Of a stretch of DNA of 64,000 bases, positions 9,988 through 22,823 are shown piece after piece. The stretch lies in the IMG/VR virus record IMGVR_UViG_3300033977_000098, positions 1-64,000 of that record; one strand, given 5' to 3'. A model generated the notes under the pieces. It was given only the letters and a program-made list of their open reading frames with translations, made no database searches and was not told the DNA's origin. Position numbers and translations under genes: made by a program. The number at the start of each line of letters is the position of its first letter. Positions within the stretch are counted from its first letter, which is position 1. This stretch comes from a virus.

Positions 9988-10516
9988 TCATCTCTTCTTT
10001 TACCCGCAGTATTTGGTTCGTCGTCCAGTCAGAAACCGCCTTCAATTCGAAAGCAGTTGCGTTTCTTTTTATCGAATTCGCCCGGAAAGAGATGACGGCA
10101 ACATTGCCAGGAACGTATCCAAGCTCTGGGATGATTTTATCGATGGATGGACGTGAATCGACTATCGATCCATCGAGTTTTATTCCCAGGACTGGACAGA
10201 ACTTAGGGATTAGGGCCGCCAGATATTCTTCCGTGATGGTGAATGCAAAATTTTCTTTTTTTGCCCTGGCCTTTGCATGTTGCCACATGATTCTAGCCGG
10301 TCTGATCCTCGCCAAGTTTTCGTCTCTGTGTTTTCGTGCTTGCTTCACCTCTGGTTTCGCATGATAATCGCGGTTATAGTTAGCCTGACACGAACGGCAG
10401 AGCGTTTGTCGTCCACGTTTCTTCCTTGCGAATTCCGAGAGGGGCTTCGGACCGCATCCGCTGCAAATTCTGCTTTCCTTTCCTGGTATATCATTACTGA
10501 ACGGAGCCGGACACAT
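9980..10516 (-). CDS. Free-standing HNH-type homing endonuclease
   Basis: 178 residues from ATG 10516 (GAGAGG upstream). The N-terminus has a four-Cys zinc motif (CSGCGPKPL...CRSCQ). The C-terminal part has the HNH-like block SIDKIIPELGYVPGNVAVIS followed by RANSIKRNAT, the layout of phage-encoded homing endonucleases of the SPSLDRI..GY..gNv type. It is wedged between a glycosyltransferase-methyltransferase and a connector gene, where it probably spreads by cutting intronless alleles. The local codon composition is less GC-rich, suggesting recent arrival. Confidence 0.78.
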   Translation of the reverse strand: MCPAPFSNDIPGKESRICSGCGPKPLSEFARKKRGRQTLCRSCQANYNRDYHAKPEVKQARKHRDENLARIRPARIMWQHAKARAKKENFAFTITEEYLAALIPKFCPVLGIKLDGSIVDSRPSIDKIIPELGYVPGNVAVISFRANSIKRNATAFELKAVSDWTTNQILRVKEEMNV

Positions 10517-10533
10517 CTTTACCTCTCGTTGTC

Positions 10534-11790
10534 TTAGACATAGGTGTACCAAATCGTCGTCTCGGGAGCGATTTGAGCCCCCGTAACGCACTCATCGACG
10601 GCCTGGCGCACGCTCGGCCAGTTTTCCGCGTAGTCGTGCCCGCAGAGCAATCCACCAGGCGCCAACCGGCCGCGCCAGGTTTCGATGTCGCGTTTCAGCT
10701 CGTCATATTCGTGGCTGCCGTCCAAAAATACCATATCGGGACCGTGCGGAGCGGTTAAGCATTCCGTAGCTTCTGCAGGACAGGCTTCAAGAACAGCGAC
10801 CGCATGGTCTGACCGTTGCGGGCGCACCTTACCATTCAAATTCTCCATATTGACGAGGAAGCGGTCGAAGAGTACGGCGCGATCGGCGGCAGAAAGCGTT
10901 GCATCGCGTGGCCCGTTCCAATCGTCGATCGCATGAACGTGCCCCGGCGTGTTGTCGCCGAGGACGCGCGTGGATCTTCCGAGATAACTGCCGATTTCCA
11001 CGATACATTGATGCGCCCTGGCTTGTTTGCCCAACCATGCCAACTCGGTTTCTTCCATCCAGCCGTCAATCTGAATGGCGCGTTCGAGGTTAACGCCGGG
11101 ATACGTGCGGGCCCGCCACCGCTTCCACGGCAGGCTCTCTTTGGGAAGCTCGTGGACCTTCCCCGTACCGATATCACAGTGCAAACACAACACGGAACTG
11201 TCCACCAAGATCCGGCATCCCGCTTCGTGGAGCTTCTGGCAGAAGTATAGGTCCTCCCAGGTTTCCAGGTTGTATTTCACCCCGCCCCACGTGACTGGCT
11301 TTTTCTCGAAAGTGAAATAGGGCTTGGCGAGCTTGTCAAACACGCTCATGCGGATGAGGGCGCAGCCCAAGCCGATCTCTTCGACTTCGAAAGTATCGCT
11401 CACCGTCCAGTCCCAAAAAGGTCCGTCCCCGGCTTTTTTGAAGACGACCGGCGCCGGCGGGTCCTGCTTCGACACATAGATTCCCGAGACCACGTCAATC
11501 TCCGGGTGATTCTCGAGATCATAAATGAGGCGCACTAGGCCGTGGACGGGAGGCACCGTGTCGTCGTCCACAAAGTAGAGGAGGCGGCAGTTCGCAGATT
11601 GCGCAGCTTCTACCATCTCGTTACGCGCAATGTCCGTGCGCTTGCCGACCGTATGAAACCGCAGGATATAAAAATTGGGTGGGTCAGGAAGGCCAGGAAC
11701 GGAAAGTGCCCACTGGTAGGGAACCGGACGGCCGGACAAAGGGACGCAGAAAGCTAATCCGCGCCGCACTTTGTCCGGGTAAACATGCAT
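10534..11790 (-). CDS. Glycosyltransferase-methyltransferase fusion
   Basis: 418 residues in two domains. Residues ~1-235 form a GT-A fold glycosyltransferase: the metal-binding LLYFVDDDTVPP and a later EDLYFCQKLHEAG block. Residues ~240-418 form a class I SAM methyltransferase of the Methyltransf_24 type: glycine motif IVEIGSYLGRSTR, an acidic AIDDW strand, and MVFLDGSHEYDELKRDI with GGLLCGHDY. A two-step sugar transfer then methylation of a virion protein, DNA or host glycan is plausible. The acceptor is unknown. It lies inside the head gene cluster between two HNH genes. Confidence 0.8.
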   Translation of the reverse strand: MHVYPDKVRRGLAFCVPLSGRPVPYQWALSVPGLPDPPNFYILRFHTVGKRTDIARNEMVEAAQSANCRLLYFVDDDTVPPVHGLVRLIYDLENHPEIDVVSGIYVSKQDPPAPVVFKKAGDGPFWDWTVSDTFEVEEIGLGCALIRMSVFDKLAKPYFTFEKKPVTWGGVKYNLETWEDLYFCQKLHEAGCRILVDSSVLCLHCDIGTGKVHELPKESLPWKRWRARTYPGVNLERAIQIDGWMEETELAWLGKQARAHQCIVEIGSYLGRSTRVLGDNTPGHVHAIDDWNGPRDATLSAADRAVLFDRFLVNMENLNGKVRPQRSDHAVAVLEACPAEATECLTAPHGPDMVFLDGSHEYDELKRDIETWRGRLAPGGLLCGHDYAENWPSVRQAVDECVTGAQIAPETTIWYTYV

Positions 11791-17281: not shown

Positions 17282-17310
17282 TTATTGATTCCGTGGAAAA
17301 GTGCTATACT
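17282..17310 (+). promoter_or_regulatory. Rightward promoter of small zinc-ribbon gene
   Basis: A good -10, TATACT (17305-17310), with only weak -35 candidates (TTATTG at 17 nt, or TTGATT at 14 nt). It is divergent from the protease promoter and fires the only short rightward gene in this part of the late region. Confidence 0.45.
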
Positions 17311-17327
17311 CGGGAGAGAGTGAAGCT

Positions 17328-17507
17328 ATGGAGGCTTTTACCCAAATCGCTCCGCCGATACCGGAAGTCACATTTGCCGCGTGTTTGGGATGCGGTCAAA
17401 TGAAGGCTCTGAGCGATGTTTTCGACGGGACGCTCTGCGAGGCGTGCCGGATCGCCAAGGGCTTGCTGCGGCCTGACGATGCCTTACTGGAGACGGTCGC
17501 TGCATGA
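17328..17507 (+). CDS. Small zinc-ribbon protein on the opposite strand
   Basis: 59 residues from ATG 17328 (GGGAGAG upstream). Contains CLGCGQMK and CEACR, a four-cysteine zinc-binding motif. It is encoded against the flow of the late operon and has its own promoter, so it may be made at a different time, perhaps as a small regulator. It converges on the end of the small gene 17509-17658. Confidence 0.65.
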   Translation: MEAFTQIAPPIPEVTFAACLGCGQMKALSDVFDGTLCEACRIAKGLLRPDDALLETVAA

Positions 17508-17508
17508 T

Positions 17509-17658
17509 TCAAAACGTAGCCGGCACGACCTTGAACGCTCCCCCGTGAAACTGAACTGGCAGGCGCTCGAACCACAGCGCCGGGTCCGTTTGTCGCGTGA
17601 CCACGCGATAATCGCTCGGACCTGCGGCCTCACCCGGCTTCGGGCGCTTTTTGTCCAA
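17509..17658 (-). CDS. Small hypothetical protein after MuF, TTG start
   Basis: A 49-residue frame (MDKKRPKPGEAAGPSDYRV...) from TTG 17658, overlapping the last 29 nt of the MuF gene in a different frame and preceded directly by TGA. The C-terminal part (TDPALWFERLPVQF, HGGAFKVVPATF) has a strongly protein-like composition unlike the other frames. No SD is obvious, so translation may be coupled to MuF. No family recognised. Confidence 0.5.
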   Translation of the reverse strand: MDKKRPKPGEAAGPSDYRVVTRQTDPALWFERLPVQFHGGAFKVVPATF

Positions 17659-20600
17659 TCATGCTGGCAGGGCCCTGCTCGATTACGCCCGCGTCATTGA
17701 TGAACACATGCGCGCCACGAATGGTCACCCAGCCCTTGCCCAAGGCTTTGTTGAAACTGACCGCAATGACGGCGCAATCGCAGTTCTTGACCACAATACC
17801 GCCTATGTTGTATATATGAGAAGTGGTGGATGCGTCAAAAGCCCAGCCATGAAATCGCCCAACTTGAGTCTGAAGAATTCGCGCCGCCTTAAAGAACGGT
17901 GGTCCCGGTTCACAGCAGAGCAGCGCAAGATCATCCTGGCACCCGCTCACGCCGCTGCCAGCGTTGCCAACAGGGCTCGCATGAAAGAATTTTGGCGCAC
18001 TGCTACGCTCAGCCAACGTCGAAAGATGCTTGAACCTGCCCACGCTGCTGCGCGCGGTCGCAAAGAACGCCTGGAATCCAAGTTGGCACGTGCCGCAACT
18101 CGCTACATGCGCGCCGTCGGGATAGGCCCCCGAGAGCGGGCATTTGCAAAGATGCTCAAGTTCGCTGGAATCAAGTTCCGACAGCAAACTCCTTGCGGGC
18201 CTTACAGCTTGGACTTCACCATAGACGAAAGTTTCGTCGCCGTGGAAATACGAACGGGGAGCAGCAACAAACGAGTAGCCAAAGCGGCCGCGCAGAGACT
18301 CAAAAGCGTCCTGGATCAATGGCACCTGTTCGAGGTTCGGTTCCATAGCGGGCATCCTCGCCGATTCCATGCGCATGTCATAAAGCAACTCGTCACCTTT
18401 CTTCAGTTCGTGCGCAAACAAGAAACCACGGCAGGTCAACATTGGGTGGTTAGGCCCGATGGTCAGTTTTATCCGTTCCGAGCCTATGGGCCGCGTAGGC
18501 CAGCCGTGATCACCAGGGAGCAATTGGCGCTCGTCGAGCGCCTCTTTAAGCTTAACGTCTCGTTGCGGAACATCCGTCGTGAAACTGGAGTAGCTCGGCG
18601 ACGACTGCCCGCAGTTCTCAGCCAACTCCAGCTCCAGCGCAATCGCGGGGCCGTGGTATGGCGCACCAAGCATTTGCTGAAGTCTGCCATAGGGCGCAAA
18701 AACTGAGCCTTCAAATACCGCGTTGGGATGTGCCGGGGGGGCCTCTACGTCCACGCCAGGGAAGGTTTCGCCTAGCGAAACGACCTCTCCATTCGCATCC
18801 TTACAGTCATCGCACGTGTTGGGCTCAACCGAAGTCTGCCATTGAAGTTTTTTTACTACCCCGCTGTCTTTCCAGACATCATAGTTCGCGTGGCATTGGG
18901 CGCGTGCGACCTCGGTGCGGGCAATCATCTCGGCGCGGGAATCAGAGAACGCGCCCGCCTCGCGGATTTGCTCGATAAGGTCGGGCATTGGAGTTTCTTT
19001 GCCGAAAGCATCCGTCACGATGCTGCGGAGATCGTCCCGCGTGGTATCACTGATGGCCCACTTCGCGTCGGCATTCTCGACGAACGTCCCATCTTCCAGT
19101 TTGTGCATTCCCACCAGTTCGGCCGCGCGTTCATCCGCCCAATCTTGTGCGCCTTGGTTCAGGGCAGAGATCATGTCGTCGTCCGTCAAGTCCAGTTCAG
19201 CTACACCTTTCCCGATGCCTGCGAACGCGGCGTGTCGCAGCGGGGGCGCTGCCTCCATTGGGATCTCGCCGAAAAGTTCCTGAAGCGCCTCGAAAATCGC
19301 ATCTGCGATGTTGATGGCGTCATCGTCCTGCTTAGCCAAATCGAACTCCTCGATTTTCTTTTTTCCATTCTTAAAGGGGATAGTGCGGATGCGCTCGAAA
19401 TCATCCGGGTCCGCCTGGCGCGCCCGATAACTGGAATCTGTTTCCTGAATCTCCGTTTTGAAGTCATGGTCCTTCAGCCATGCGCGCACATCTTCTTTTG
19501 TCCACGCATCCTTCGGCATGAAGAGGATCGACTGCGCCTCTGTCCGCCCACCTTCCGGACCCTTTTCGGAAGGCTTGCGAACGCCCACCGTTGCCGAAAT
19601 GCGCCGCGCCGCTTTCCCGAAGCCATCCACAATCAGGGCGTGCACCATCTCATCATGGACCTTCAGCAAGCGGTCAGCCTTTTCCTTGGCGCGGTCGCGC
19701 TGCCGGCGAAAAACTTTCTTGATAATTTCTGCCAGCTCGCGCTCCGCTTCCTGGAGGGCGGGCGTGGAATGCGAGGGGTCGATTTTGATGTTGGCCGCCT
19801 TCGCTAGTGGCAGGGAGCGGCTCTTAGTGGAAACGCTTGGTGCTTTGTCAATTAACTCGTCGCACGTCCCGCACTTGAATTGGCGCACTTGCTCATCGGC
19901 TGGCCCGAAATCGTTGCAGCAGCCCAGCTCCTTTGAGACACCACCTTTGACATAGACGGTTTTGCAATCGGCGTCTTTGACGGCACCTGGGAACTCCATG
20001 TACCCGGCGTCTTCTTCAGGCTTGCGAGAATCGCGTTTGAGAATCGTAAGCGTCTGCGCGCCACCAGTGGCTTTCCAATACGGTTGGAAATTCTTGACCG
20101 CCTCGATGAATTCCGGCGTCCACTCGCCCAGGAACTGGGTGGCTTTGTCGTCCACAAACTCGTGCGCCATGACCGGCTTGACGTTCGTGATGTCCAGTAC
20201 GTAGGCGCTCGCCTTGTTTTGTTGCAGCGCCACCCACACGGGTCCGAAGTCTGTCCGCGCTGTGAAGATCAAGATATCAAAATCCTTAGACAACTCCCGC
20301 AGGGCGTCCACGGCGCCGTCGATAAACTCCGTGATCGCCGTCGGGTCGTCGGGGTCGCCGACTTGAATGGTGGAATCGAAGTCGAGGCAGAGAAGGGGCT
20401 TTTGCAGCAAATCGGTTAGCGCCTTGACGAGTTCGCGCTCATAGGCGGCTGTCGGCATTTGCTGCAAGCCTTCATGTTTCACATAAACATTAGCATTGCT
20501 CAACTCCGTTGGCAAATCCTCTTCCACGATAAGGCTGTCCGACGCGATGGCAATGCCATCGGCCCGCACCAATAAGTTGGCGAGGTTGGTAAGTGTGTTC

Positions 20601-20797
20601 CGCACATCAGCGCTCACGTTGCCCTGCGCCGCAAACAGCGCCGCCTTGCGTAACGCTTCAGGGTCCGTGCTGTACCCCTGGTCGCAGAACTTCTGTAGTT
20701 CGCTGGGCCCCTCGCCAACCGCCGCGCAGAGGTCAGACCAGCCTCTACCTGAAGCCAGCGGACCTACGTAGTCAGTGCCGAACAATGATATACTCAT
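17630..20797 (-). CDS. MuF head protein with HAD domain and split by an intein
   Basis: 1055 residues from ATG 20797 (GAGGTGG upstream). Residues ~135-220 carry HAD-type motifs (LLCLDFDSTI with DxD, IFTAR, FVDDKA), a phosphatase-like domain. A cysteine-rich patch follows near residue 300 (CCNDF, CGTCDELI). Residues ~590-690 are the MuF/SPP1 gp7 domain (ARTEVARAQCHANYDVWK, CDDCKDANGE, PPAHPN). The MuF motif HPNCDC is interrupted after N692 by a 313-residue intein and resumes at C1006. The C-terminus repeats GWVTIRGAHVFI seen in the next gene upstream. MuF proteins sit inside the head near the portal and are often injected. Confidence 0.82.
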   Translation of the reverse strand: MSISLFGTDYVGPLASGRGWSDLCAAVGEGPSELQKFCDQGYSTDPEALRKAALFAAQGNVSADVRNTLTNLANLLVRADGIAIASDSLIVEEDLPTELSNANVYVKHEGLQQMPTAAYERELVKALTDLLQKPLLCLDFDSTIQVGDPDDPTAITEFIDGAVDALRELSKDFDILIFTARTDFGPVWVALQQNKASAYVLDITNVKPVMAHEFVDDKATQFLGEWTPEFIEAVKNFQPYWKATGGAQTLTILKRDSRKPEEDAGYMEFPGAVKDADCKTVYVKGGVSKELGCCNDFGPADEQVRQFKCGTCDELIDKAPSVSTKSRSLPLAKAANIKIDPSHSTPALQEAERELAEIIKKVFRRQRDRAKEKADRLLKVHDEMVHALIVDGFGKAARRISATVGVRKPSEKGPEGGRTEAQSILFMPKDAWTKEDVRAWLKDHDFKTEIQETDSSYRARQADPDDFERIRTIPFKNGKKKIEEFDLAKQDDDAINIADAIFEALQELFGEIPMEAAPPLRHAAFAGIGKGVAELDLTDDDMISALNQGAQDWADERAAELVGMHKLEDGTFVENADAKWAISDTTRDDLRSIVTDAFGKETPMPDLIEQIREAGAFSDSRAEMIARTEVARAQCHANYDVWKDSGVVKKLQWQTSVEPNTCDDCKDANGEVVSLGETFPGVDVEAPPAHPNAVFEGSVFAPYGRLQQMLGAPYHGPAIALELELAENCGQSSPSYSSFTTDVPQRDVKLKEALDERQLLPGDHGWPTRPIGSERIKLTIGPNHPMLTCRGFLFAHELKKGDELLYDMRMESARMPAMEPNLEQVPLIQDAFESLRGRFGYSFVAAPRSYFHGDETFVYGEVQAVRPARSLLSELDSSELEHLCKCPLSGAYPDGAHVASCGTCQLGFQAFFATARSSVGRFKHLSTLAERSSAPKFFHASPVGNAGSGVSGCQDDLALLCCEPGPPFFKAARILQTQVGRFHGWAFDASTTSHIYNIGGIVVKNCDCAVIAVSFNKALGKGWVTIRGAHVFINDAGVIEQGPASMIGQKAPEAG
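17783..18721 (-). mobile_element. Ala1 intein in the MuF protein
   Basis: 313 residues inserted between PPAHPN and CDCAV. The intein begins AVFEGSVFAPYG (Ala1 rather than Cys/Ser). It has a block B with TIGPNHPMLT and HELKKGDELL, and ends with block F/G FDASTTSHIYNIGGIVVKN followed by Cys+1. Ala1 with a nucleophilic +1 Cys is the class 2 layout, in which the C-extein cysteine attacks directly. No LAGLIDADG motif occurs in the intein frame. Its centre reads as low-complexity sequence because the opposite strand carries an endonuclease-like frame. Confidence 0.82.
17849..18706 (+). CDS. Vsr/DUF559-like endonuclease antisense inside the MuF intein
   Basis: A 285-residue frame from ATG 17849 (an alternative ATG lies at 17816), entirely inside the intein coding region but on the opposite strand. 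The centre has the restriction-like core of DUF559/Vsr proteins: ERAFAKMLKFAGIKF, RQQTPCGPYSLDF and ESFVAVEI, followed by QRLKSVLDQWHLFEVRF. Upstream is a repeated basic segment (RKIILAPAHAAA and RRKMLEPAHAAA), and downstream a helix-turn-helix-like stretch (VSLRNIRRETGVARRRL). It would be the homing enzyme of the intein, encoded antisense. No strong SD precedes either start. Confidence 0.68.
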   Translation: MKSPNLSLKNSRRLKERWSRFTAEQRKIILAPAHAAASVANRARMKEFWRTATLSQRRKMLEPAHAAARGRKERLESKLARAATRYMRAVGIGPRERAFAKMLKFAGIKFRQQTPCGPYSLDFTIDESFVAVEIRTGSSNKRVAKAAAQRLKSVLDQWHLFEVRFHSGHPRRFHAHVIKQLVTFLQFVRKQETTAGQHWVVRPDGQFYPFRAYGPRRPAVITREQLALVERLFKLNVSLRNIRRETGVARRRLPAVLSQLQLQRNRGAVVWRTKHLLKSAIGRKN

Positions 20798-20918
20798 CGG
20801 TATCCACCTCATCGACCTTACTGGACAGCGGTTTGGTAAGCTCGTCGTTCTGCGACGGAGCCCGAAGCTGGTAGCGTATGGTTCGCTTTGGGAGTGTCTC
20901 TGTGACCATCGTCTCCAT
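20772..20918 (-). CDS. Small acidic protein overlapping MuF start
   Basis: 48 residues (METMVTETLPKRTIRYQL...DTDEYIIVRH) in a different frame from the HTH frame above and the MuF gene below, overlapping the MuF start by 26 nt. The composition is clearly protein-like with an acidic C-terminal half. It shows that the HTH frame is probably not the translated one across 20.8-20.9 kb. A GGAG lies close to the second ATG. No family recognised. Confidence 0.55.
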   Translation of the reverse strand: METMVTETLPKRTIRYQLRAPSQNDELTKPLSSKVDEVDTDEYIIVRH

Positions 20919-21409
20919 CCTCTTGGATGCCTCGGCAGGCCATAAACCTGGAAGATGCGAACCACAGTTATTTCCGTGCGCCTAATACGCTTAGCAACCT
21001 GCTTCAACGTGAGACCCGCCATGTAGAGCTGGTGCATCGGCCGCACGACCTCGATGGGCCACAACGTTGTGCGGCGGCGATTCAGGCGCGGACCGCGCGA
21101 GCCAGTCGGACGTCTCTCTACGCCGAATCGCCGCAATGCATACAAAATCGCAGTATGATGGACGCCATACCGGTCCGCAAGCTGGTGAAGCGTCCAACCT
21201 TTCCGGTAAAGCTGCGCGCATTCCTGTAACGGCACTGTGGCGTGAAACGGGCGTATGGGAAAGCCGTTGCGCGCGAAGAGCTGACGGACCCGTTCGCGGG
21301 ACAGGCCGATGCGCCGCGCCACTTCCGCGACCGTGAGCCCTGCGACGTGAAGCCGATGCAGCTTTCGGATGTGCTCTGTGGTCCATCTTCGAGCATGTTC
21401 ACTTCGCAT
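20798..21409 (-). CDS. Triple helix-turn-helix protein, open in frame into MuF
   Basis: From ATG 21409 (GGAG at 8 nt) the frame encodes three successive helix-turn-helix units: GLTVAEVARRIGLSRERVR, GWTLHQLADRYGVHHTAIL and GLTLKQVAKRIRRTEITVV, each followed by a short basic linker. The start overlaps the stop of the upstream gene by 11 nt. No stop codon occurs before the MuF ATG in the same frame, so a fusion is possible, but the last ~40 codons look non-coding and a different small gene occupies that stretch. The stop codon may have been lost, or the gene was inserted here. Confidence 0.6.
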
Positions 21410-22823
21410 CGGGATTCTCCAAAAAGCTACCATCATCAAGTTTGTGTAGAGCAAACGGCGATGTGATTTTGCTGATAAATGCCCGAAGCTGCTTGAGGTT
21501 TTTGAGCGGGGTCATCTGCCCTATTCGGAACGCCCCCATGCCTTCGTGCACGAATATCTTTTCACCCCCCCCTCGGTTGTCGATGAGTACGCAATAGCCT
21601 TTCGCACGATTCTGCGTCAGGTCTTCTAGCTTTCTCTCTCGGCATTCTGGCCGCATGTTGATGCGCACGTTCGTCAGCTTCTTGCCCAACAGCGTCTTGA
21701 CCTCAAGCCCGACCTTACCGCCCCCGGCGCGCACGTAGATATCGAGGGGGGAATTGTCTGGTGTGCGCTCACCGCCTACCGCCTCCGCAACGCGCTGTTC
21801 GTTCGCATCCGCCTTGCGCTGGTGCGCCTTCAAGGCCGGCTTGAAGTTCTTAAGCGCGGCCGTGCACTTGTCGGCAACCAGCGAGCCATCTGGCTTGAGC
21901 TGGTGGCCTACCATGCTGTGGGGGCCGTGCGTGATGCGCCCAGCCTCGTCGATAAACACGTGGGCACCGCGGATCGTGACCCAGCCTTTACTAACTGGTT
22001 GCGGCGCCGCGCCCTCTGTCCATCGTCCGTGCTCATCACGCGGCTGGTCCGGCGAATACTTGCTCAAGCTTTCCCACGCTGTTAACGCCTTGTTCACGCC
22101 GAAGCGTGCGCCAATAGCGTCGCGCCGGCCGATGAGCGCGTTCGCGTATTTCCCGGACAGCCCAGCTTCGTTCACTAGCTCGCGGATCGTGTCGTCATCA
22201 AGGGTGGCGACGAGGTGTTGCGCCTGGGCTTGCAATTCGTCATCAGTGAACCCCGCAAATATTGGTGCCGCATCAGGCGCCGTTTCCCGGTCCCGCATTG
22301 AATCAATCTCCGGGACTATTATTGCTGAAACGTCCTTATCCTGGCCTTGGGCTCGGAACGCGAACGTGCTTCCATTGTCGATGCGCAGATCGCGGCCATC
22401 AACACGTAGGATATTGCGGCCGCTGCTGCCGATGACATCGTGGTTAGCAAGGAGACAATCTGTAAGAAACCCGTCGCGCACGTCGGGGCTTTCGGCCAGT
22501 TCGTCACTGTCCAACTGTTCGCCTTCGACCATCTTGCCCGCGATGCCCAGGCCGCTCGCCTCGCCCCACCCGGCGTGGCCGGAAACGAGCTGCTTCTCTG
22601 GGACCGGCAATCCTACCGTGCGGTAAACCAGCGTCGCCAATAGTTCGGCGCGAGATTGCTCAGGGTCAAGCTGAGGGAACTTGACGTACCACTGCTGTCC
22701 GCTCTCGTCCTCGTAGACGCCGCCAGGATTTGAGCCTTTGTGCTGGCTGACGTGCCACCAGGAAGCAATGGACTCAGGTGCGCTCGCCTTGGTGAGCGTT
22801 CCGGCAATGAGAGAAGCGTCCAA
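21399..22823 (-). CDS. HipA-like kinase domain fused to PD-(D/E)XK-like domain
   Basis: 474 residues from TTG 22823. Residues ~25-200 resemble phage HipA/PI-kinase-like proteins: NPGGVYEDESGQQWYVKFP, RAELLATLVYRTVGLPVPE, DGFLTDCLLANHDVIG and RDLRIDNGSTFAFR. Then comes SKYSPDQPRDEHGRWTEG and the module GWVTIRGAHVFIDEAGRI. Residues ~355-400 contain LDIYV...VGLEVKTLL, a possible D..ExK nuclease signature. The C-terminus ends HKLDDGSFLENPDAK, matching a MuF segment (HKLEDGTFVENADAK). The arrangement recalls capsid-associated effector proteins. Activity is inferred. Confidence 0.62.
   Translation of the reverse strand: MDASLIAGTLTKASAPESIASWWHVSQHKGSNPGGVYEDESGQQWYVKFPQLDPEQSRAELLATLVYRTVGLPVPEKQLVSGHAGWGEASGLGIAGKMVEGEQLDSDELAESPDVRDGFLTDCLLANHDVIGSSGRNILRVDGRDLRIDNGSTFAFRAQGQDKDVSAIIVPEIDSMRDRETAPDAAPIFAGFTDDELQAQAQHLVATLDDDTIRELVNEAGLSGKYANALIGRRDAIGARFGVNKALTAWESLSKYSPDQPRDEHGRWTEGAAPQPVSKGWVTIRGAHVFIDEAGRITHGPHSMVGHQLKPDGSLVADKCTAALKNFKPALKAHQRKADANEQRVAEAVGGERTPDNSPLDIYVRAGGGKVGLEVKTLLGKKLTNVRINMRPECRERKLEDLTQNRAKGYCVLIDNRGGGEKIFVHEGMGAFRIGQMTPLKNLKQLRAFISKITSPFALHKLDDGSFLENPDAK

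Follow-up and report, generated by a model that had tools for sequence, protein, structure and literature searches.

Inteins of phage MuF genes with a predicted nuclease gene on the antisense strand

How could an intein be mobile when its own reading frame holds no endonuclease? This question is raised by the MuF-like minor head protein gene in a 64,000-nucleotide stretch of viral DNA (positions 1–64,000 of IMG/VR record IMGVR_UViG_3300033977_000098; hereafter, the window), where an intein is overlapped on the opposite strand by a long open frame. In prokaryotes, antisense genes that are long and fully embedded, with a recognisable fold in each of the two products, are very rare and disputed. 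The present locus belongs to a large family found in nature, whose two products, a Hint domain and a nuclease, can both be identified; selection can moreover be measured on each strand. As described below, the MuF intein is very probably a mobile element with ambisense coding, in which Hint splicing is encoded in the sense and a homing endonuclease in the antisense direction.

The intein and the nuclease frame

The features of the locus are collected in Table 1. The insertion in the window is in frame and contiguous at the conserved HPN/C motif of MuF, with junctions reading ...APPAHPN/AVFEGS...GGIVVKN/CDCAVI (slash, splice point); the empty alleles described below are those of relatives. A sequence-only reading of this DNA had proposed that the MuF motif HPN/CDC is split by a 313-residue Ala1 intein without an endonuclease motif in its own frame, and both proposals hold. 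The window intein frame alone gave no match in a Pfam search; Intein_splicing is matched by 21 of the 35 members of the intein family alignment, and the best match of the family profile in the PDB is the Ala1-type KlbA/MJ0781 intein (2jmz, 4.5e-10), RadA and RecA inteins being matched as well. Splicing blocks A, B, F and G, the terminal Asn and the +1 Cys are present (alignment A3 and boundaries), and Ala at position 1 and a nucleophilic +1 Cys (AVFEG...VVKN followed by C) place the intein in class 2 (KlbA-like). Pfam detects no nuclease family in the reading frame of the window intein or of the family members. In the AF2 model, the Hint parts have pLDDT >90 and residues 195–208 and 215–272, within the stretch opposite the nuclease, have pLDDT <50; Foldseek retrieves GyrA and RadA inteins with this model (prob 0.92–0.93). 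Between the splicing blocks, the intein motif that is best conserved, FHGD...GEV, corresponds to the catalytic core of the nuclease (VAVE...LDF) on the opposite strand. Furthermore, a disordered insertion of ~50 residues between blocks A and B is found only in the window clade (alignment A3, AF2) and sits exactly where the nuclease has an extra C-terminal HTH.

Table 1. Coordinates of the features discussed (window positions, except for the last row)
Feature	Position	Strand	Basis or remark
MuF-like minor head protein ORF, intein host	17630-21454	minus	Phage_Mu_F 1e-11, residues 814-911; TIGR01641 7.5e-11
Exteins of the MuF ORF	N-extein end, 18722; C-extein, 17633-17782	minus	
Intein, 313 residues, Ala1...Asn313, Cys+1, class 2-like	17783-18721	minus	Boundaries by sequence
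Intein block B, TIGPNHPMLT	18434-18463	minus	Alignment A3; opposite strand, nuclease segment around HWVVRPDG
Intein blocks F and G, FHGWAFDAST...GGIVVKN	17783-17854	minus	Alignment A3; opposite strand, nuclease 5' region
Antisense gene of predicted nuclease, 285 aa	17849-18706	plus	DUF559, tblastn relatives, AF2, Foldseek
Predicted catalytic core	18134-18247	plus	E96 18134-18136; D122 18212-18214; E133 18245-18247
C-terminal HTH of nuclease, residues 223-259	18515-18625	plus	AF2, alignment A3
TTG, likely ancestral start	17864-17866	plus	Aligns with ATG start of closest relatives (LSLKNSRRLKERW vs MSRNQSIAMKKRW)
Degenerate promoter-like TTGACC-N18-TATATA, 9/12	17787-17816	plus	Relatives L018, L019, L021: TTGACA-N18-TATAAT
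MuF intein with antisense LAGLIDADG-like ORF, Gordonia phages Lennon (L113) and Nordenberg (L111)	10512-11099 of record NC_042045	minus	

The insert might no longer splice, and MuF might simply tolerate a long insertion that hides a nuclease gene, as has been proposed for the insertion in phage ShiLan (see below). Such a loss would fit the block B of the window clade, which is without the usual Thr (IGPNH), and the replacement of the penultimate His by Lys or Ser in many members. However, most members match Intein_splicing, the family matches the class 2 KlbA type, block B His92, the terminal Asn and the +1 Cys are invariant, and the Hint halves are modelled with pLDDT >90. Loss of splicing is thus very unlikely, and the insert is treated here as a putatively splicing intein.

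The product of the plus strand is composed of two linker repeats, a DUF559/Vsr-type PD-(D/E)XK core and a C-terminal HTH. The 285-residue DUF559/Vsr protein proposed by the sequence-only reading was subjected to a profile search that had been set beforehand as a possible refutation, and a match was obtained: 21.2 bits against Pfam DUF559 (gathering score 20.6, E=2.8e-4), and 4.7e-5 against NCBIfam PRK09767 DUF559. A PHROGs search with the same protein gave nothing significant. The best Foldseek matches of its AF2 model (pLDDT 84.5) are the catalytic domain of I-Bth0305I (3r3p) and Vsr (1vsr), with prob 1.00 and moderate E-values of 2.6e-3 to 8e-3. By tblastn, relatives are found in 49 phage records, every one antisense in a MuF/minor-head gene or equivalent; for example, Rhodococcus phage REQ3 matches the window nuclease at 41.5% (6e-27), its nuclease frame scoring 115 bits versus 96 bits for the intein frame. 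In the relatives, HTH repeats are followed by a linker of the form SEAMFIRMSKTSPEERARLTDAAHDAVRG, the core GPYNLDF...VAVEV and a tail. Residues D122, E133 and R150 do not vary among 48 diverse members (A2), and E96 is invariant in the first 11 members (A1) along with D122 and E133. Within Pfam, REase_MTES_1575 is matched by 28 of the 48 relatives, DUF559 by 12 of the 48 and HTH families by many, and the nuclease profile matches 3hrl in the PDB (1.2e-4). As for the EDxHD motif of the I-Bth0305I family, many relatives read VAVEIFGGGWH and the window reads VAVEIRTGSS, without that His. The plus-strand product is a predicted nuclease of the Vsr/DUF559 fold with an acidic core.

Some other features of the neighbourhood deserve mention. 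The MuF ORF begins with ~190 codons (20884–21454, minus) for HTH repeats in frame with MuF (phrog_664, 8e-14), which resemble phage DNA-binding/HNH-associated proteins; this stretch is perhaps a separate gene or the remnant of another homing endonuclease. MuF residues 346–443 (~20126–20419, minus), upstream of the MuF domain, are HAD-like/phosphoheptose-isomerase-like (phrog_1238, 1.4e-5).

Coding on both strands

Both frames are open across all 858 bp in the window, in line with the ~860 bp claimed at first, and the plus and minus codons coincide exactly: plus position 1 lies opposite minus position 3, and the second positions lie opposite each other. Since GC-rich genomes often leave the coincident frame open, a chance antisense ORF has to be considered, whose tblastn matches would merely mirror the conservation of the intein. 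Indeed, the window phage has 57% GC and the antisense ORFs of its other structural genes reach 343–347 codons, so that the length of the ORF is no proof of coding, and the invariable location of the tblastn matches, antisense in MuF or an equivalent gene, is also what chance would give. Third-position GC was tried as a strand test and rejected as uninformative, because the two frames mirror each other (0.61 vs 0.62). In contrast to a chance ORF, the plus-strand protein matches nuclease families unrelated to inteins, while 8 other antisense ORFs of the window have no match in Pfam. Codons that would stop the other strand are avoided as well. In the window nuclease frame, 5.4 TTA, CTA or TCA codons are expected and 0 are found (P=0.003); over 59 loci, with kin treated as partly independent, 252 codons whose reverse complement is a stop are expected and 0 are observed. 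The arrangement also occurs in genomes of 39–53% GC, where stops should abound, and a single locus of 39% GC alone gives stop-codon avoidance at 10^-8.8.

Selection was examined in 14 independent pairs, kin loci being treated as partly independent. Within the overlap, differences peak at nuclease position 3 (= intein position 1) in 14 of 14 pairs, and outside it at MuF position 3 in 13 of 14, i.e., the position pattern flips exactly at the overlap. Pooled omega, which compares nonsynonymous with synonymous changes in a frame where the change is nonsynonymous in the opposite frame, takes values of 0.39 (nuclease) and 0.65 (intein) inside the overlap; outside, it is 0.50 for MuF and 1.06 for the plus frame, which there looks non-coding. 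Two frames are therefore constrained at once in the overlap, as had been suspected, and the nuclease is under stronger purifying selection than the intein. Taken with the profile, the fold and the codon tests, and with the Shine-Dalgarno sequence, start codon and promoter embedded in relatives (see below), this leads us to reject the chance ORF, the probability of which is close to nil, and to retain a real antisense nuclease gene.

The arrangement is recurrent. A single-protein scan of viral sequences gave one locus. With an alignment as the query, IMG/VR yielded 249 relatives, and 80 of these were retained; because this viral scan includes a pattern that corresponds to block B on the reverse strand, it is biased toward intein-linked copies. 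In the first 93 loci, which form 61 clusters, the minus frame runs uninterrupted opposite the entire nuclease without exception. Both frames are likewise open in Vibrio phage H2, in Jersey and four more phages, in four others including Aaphi23 and Snoke, and in 11 bacterial genomes from Acidimicrobiaceae to Rhizobium. In total, all 114 DUF559-type loci, drawn from IMG/VR contigs, named phages and these 11 bacterial genomes, and many of them near-identical, are antisense and codon-coincident with both frames open. The nested arrangement sought in related inteins is thus present in 114 of 114 loci, and an intein frame conserved beside a broken plus frame, named at the outset as a refuting observation, is absent from all the related inteins examined. 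A nuclease search of plasmids gave one Streptomyces record. The host gene is MuF in 33 of 47 cases and dCMP deaminase once.

The nuclease gene is therefore carried, unannotated, by common phages such as jerseyviruses, Kagunavirus, Klebsiella jedunaviruses and Gordonia phages. Jerseyviruses commonly have this intein in MuF (our loci L109, L114 and L115; about 60–70 Salmonella phage records), and some of their records name the MuF gene NAD+--asparagine ADP-ribosyltransferase. A few records (PK1, vB_StyS-sam) list hypothetical proteins that are fragments of the antisense ORF. Among the less usual hosts, L012 (Virus Rctr197k, KX853510.1; 616–1968) is annotated as a head morphogenesis protein, its host gene being the dCMP deaminase, where the intein with the antisense nuclease adjoins the zinc-binding PCxxC motif. 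In L082 (1836–3839), such an intein lies in an apparent glycosyltransferase gene, judged by eye, and not in MuF; in L035 (1661–6268), part of a MuF fusion protein resembles, again by eye, an ADP-ribosyltransferase domain.

Start signals and a likely second nuclease family

Signals for expression of the nuclease gene are found inside the C-terminal splicing motifs of many relatives. Block F was read on the reverse strand for 46 distinct inteins that have HVYDL/HVYNL-like motifs there, and gives approximately GAGRTYRTAnACATG. The block F Leu is encoded by CTC, which gives the GAG of a Shine-Dalgarno sequence, in 32 of 44 cases (11.4 expected, P~1e-10), and the His is encoded by CAT, which gives ATG, in 39 of 46 (22 expected, P~3e-7). 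The closest relatives of the window (L018–L022) have GGAGG before the nuclease ATG. A sigma-70 promoter matching at 12/12 lies inside the C-terminal splice motif in L018, L019 and L021 and in the more distant L073 and L081, and an 11/12 match is found in L022 and in L008 (coliphage fEg-Eco06); in most relatives, a strong sigma-70 match upstream of the nuclease is absent.

The window copy differs in these signals. The start position used by the relatives corresponds to TTG 17864 and not to ATG 17849, and the Shine-Dalgarno sequence has been lost at the homologous start. A sigma-70 scan of the window gave no site by the scan criteria; the promoter-like sequence of Table 1 emerged only by comparison with the relatives. 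Because the promoter is degenerate and the Shine-Dalgarno sequence is gone, this copy may be weakly expressed or decaying. A further, small ORF on the plus strand (17301–17507), with two CxxC pairs and with TTGATT and TATACT ahead of it, occupies the gap between MuF and the next gene; its direction is that of the nuclease, with which it might share a transcript.

There is also a likely case of a different nuclease. The MuF inteins of Gordonia phages Lennon and Nordenberg, which were reached by a query with the Hint domain only, have no DUF559 ORF. They have another codon-coincident antisense ORF, which contains MKLDPVAAAYVAAFIDGEGTVTV. This ORF matches I-MsoI at 1.3e-3 (phmmer), and Pfam LAGLIDADG_3 only at 0.26; tblastn retrieves annotated phage endonucleases of cyanophage PP and Caulobacter phages (2e-6 to 8e-6). 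Because of the matches to I-MsoI and to annotated phage endonucleases, the antisense slot of this intein is likely to hold a LAGLIDADG-type nuclease. Among the inteins examined by the Hint-only query, none is without an antisense ORF of nuclease type, each having a DUF559 or a LAGLIDADG-like one. Probably, then, ambisense inteins are a general class in tailed phages, in which the slot between blocks B and F would be filled, antisense and codon for codon, by nucleases of two or more unrelated families (Vsr/DUF559 and LAGLIDADG), and in which splicing motifs would double as promoter, ribosome-binding site and start codon.

Probable mobility and comparison with known systems

Intein-free alleles are common. 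For Salmonella phage PK1, the exteins joined together are matched by at least 330 records, over at least 80% of their length in one place and contiguously among the matches listed. Those of Klebsiella phage RCIP0054 match 71 records, most with an intact empty site; for example, JustaPhage matches in a single piece at 92.6%. Judged by their sequence, these contiguous matches are intein-free alleles. Furthermore, the element is far more alike than its host gene in many pairs of loci: the nuclease overlap is 91% identical and the exteins 64% in L026/L032, the corresponding values are 81% and 55% in L073/L081, and in L009/L011 the element is 98% and the host gene 84% identical. Conversely, the MuF genes of L014 and L015 are 94% identical, yet the inteins at their shared site differ. 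Comparative support for the view that the arrangement confers mobility thus comes from empty sites and horizontal transfer, and the nuclease probably enables copying of the intein into other phages.

Phage homing endonucleases can acquire other roles, such as the exclusion of co-infecting phages. The nuclease could accordingly be real without driving homing, serving exclusion, or its antisense transcript could regulate MuF, since an antisense promoter over a late gene could influence MuF expression. However, intein and nuclease are transferred together between divergent MuF genes, and empty alleles are frequent, as expected under homing, so that a role apart from homing is unlikely.

For homing, the steps that we infer would be as follows. 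The sense strand, translated within MuF, would give a Hint domain (blocks A/B and F/G) by which the capsid protein is freed of the insert. Between blocks B and F, a distinct gene would lie in reverse complement, encoding a Vsr/DUF559-fold endonuclease with HTH modules; it would be expressed from the opposite strand and, in many relatives, by signals apparently located within the C-terminal splicing blocks. The nuclease presumably cuts intein-free MuF alleles in co-infection, and repair would then copy the entire element in. As the nuclease lies in the slot of the canonical in-frame endonuclease domains, the likely origin is invasion of the B–F slot by a nuclease gene in reverse orientation, after which selection would have kept both strands open. 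Since neither strand can use codons that are stops on its opposite, the intein would keep an open, mostly disordered linker mirroring the nuclease. An antisense nuclease would explain why these MuF inteins appear to be without an endonuclease, and, if it is separately expressed, the intein could be mobile whether or not the host capsid gene is being translated.

In the papers that were searched, antisense nucleases inside inteins are not reported; a preprint by Gosselin, Arsenault and Gogarten on actinobacteriophage inteins of 'non-canonical architecture' (10.1101/2025.01.02.630785), which PMC11855218 cites for overlapping frames in actinophages, may overlap with the present work, and its data set would include Gordonia MuF inteins. 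In ShiLan, a hidden HNH gene lies out of frame on the same strand of an insertion in a phage methylase gene, without a recognisable splicing domain or ribosome-binding site (PMC11855218). Both cases are phage elements in which a hidden endonuclease gene overlaps a host-gene frame that is open, whereas the element of the window is on the opposite strand, is of the DUF559/Vsr type and has a Hint domain.

Canonical LAGLIDADG or HNH inteins share with it the Hint domain, a conserved host-gene motif as the site and the position of the nuclease between blocks B and F. In those inteins, however, the nuclease is an in-frame domain, while here it has a gene of its own, which lies on the opposite strand and overlaps the intein codon for codon. 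In fractured genes, the endonuclease is reportedly a free-standing gene between the halves of a split intein; here the intein is contiguous and the nuclease gene lies antisense inside it. I-Bth0305I and the fractured-gene split inteins, as cited in PMC10448857, have the same fold class and the association with inteins in common with the present case (Dassa 2009; Taylor 2011). Finally, group I introns carry antisense homing endonuclease genes, e.g., I-DsqI (PMC9548176). Such introns likewise have the homing endonuclease on the strand opposite the self-splicing element, but the other strand there is a non-coding intron RNA, whereas in the MuF inteins both strands are protein-coding.
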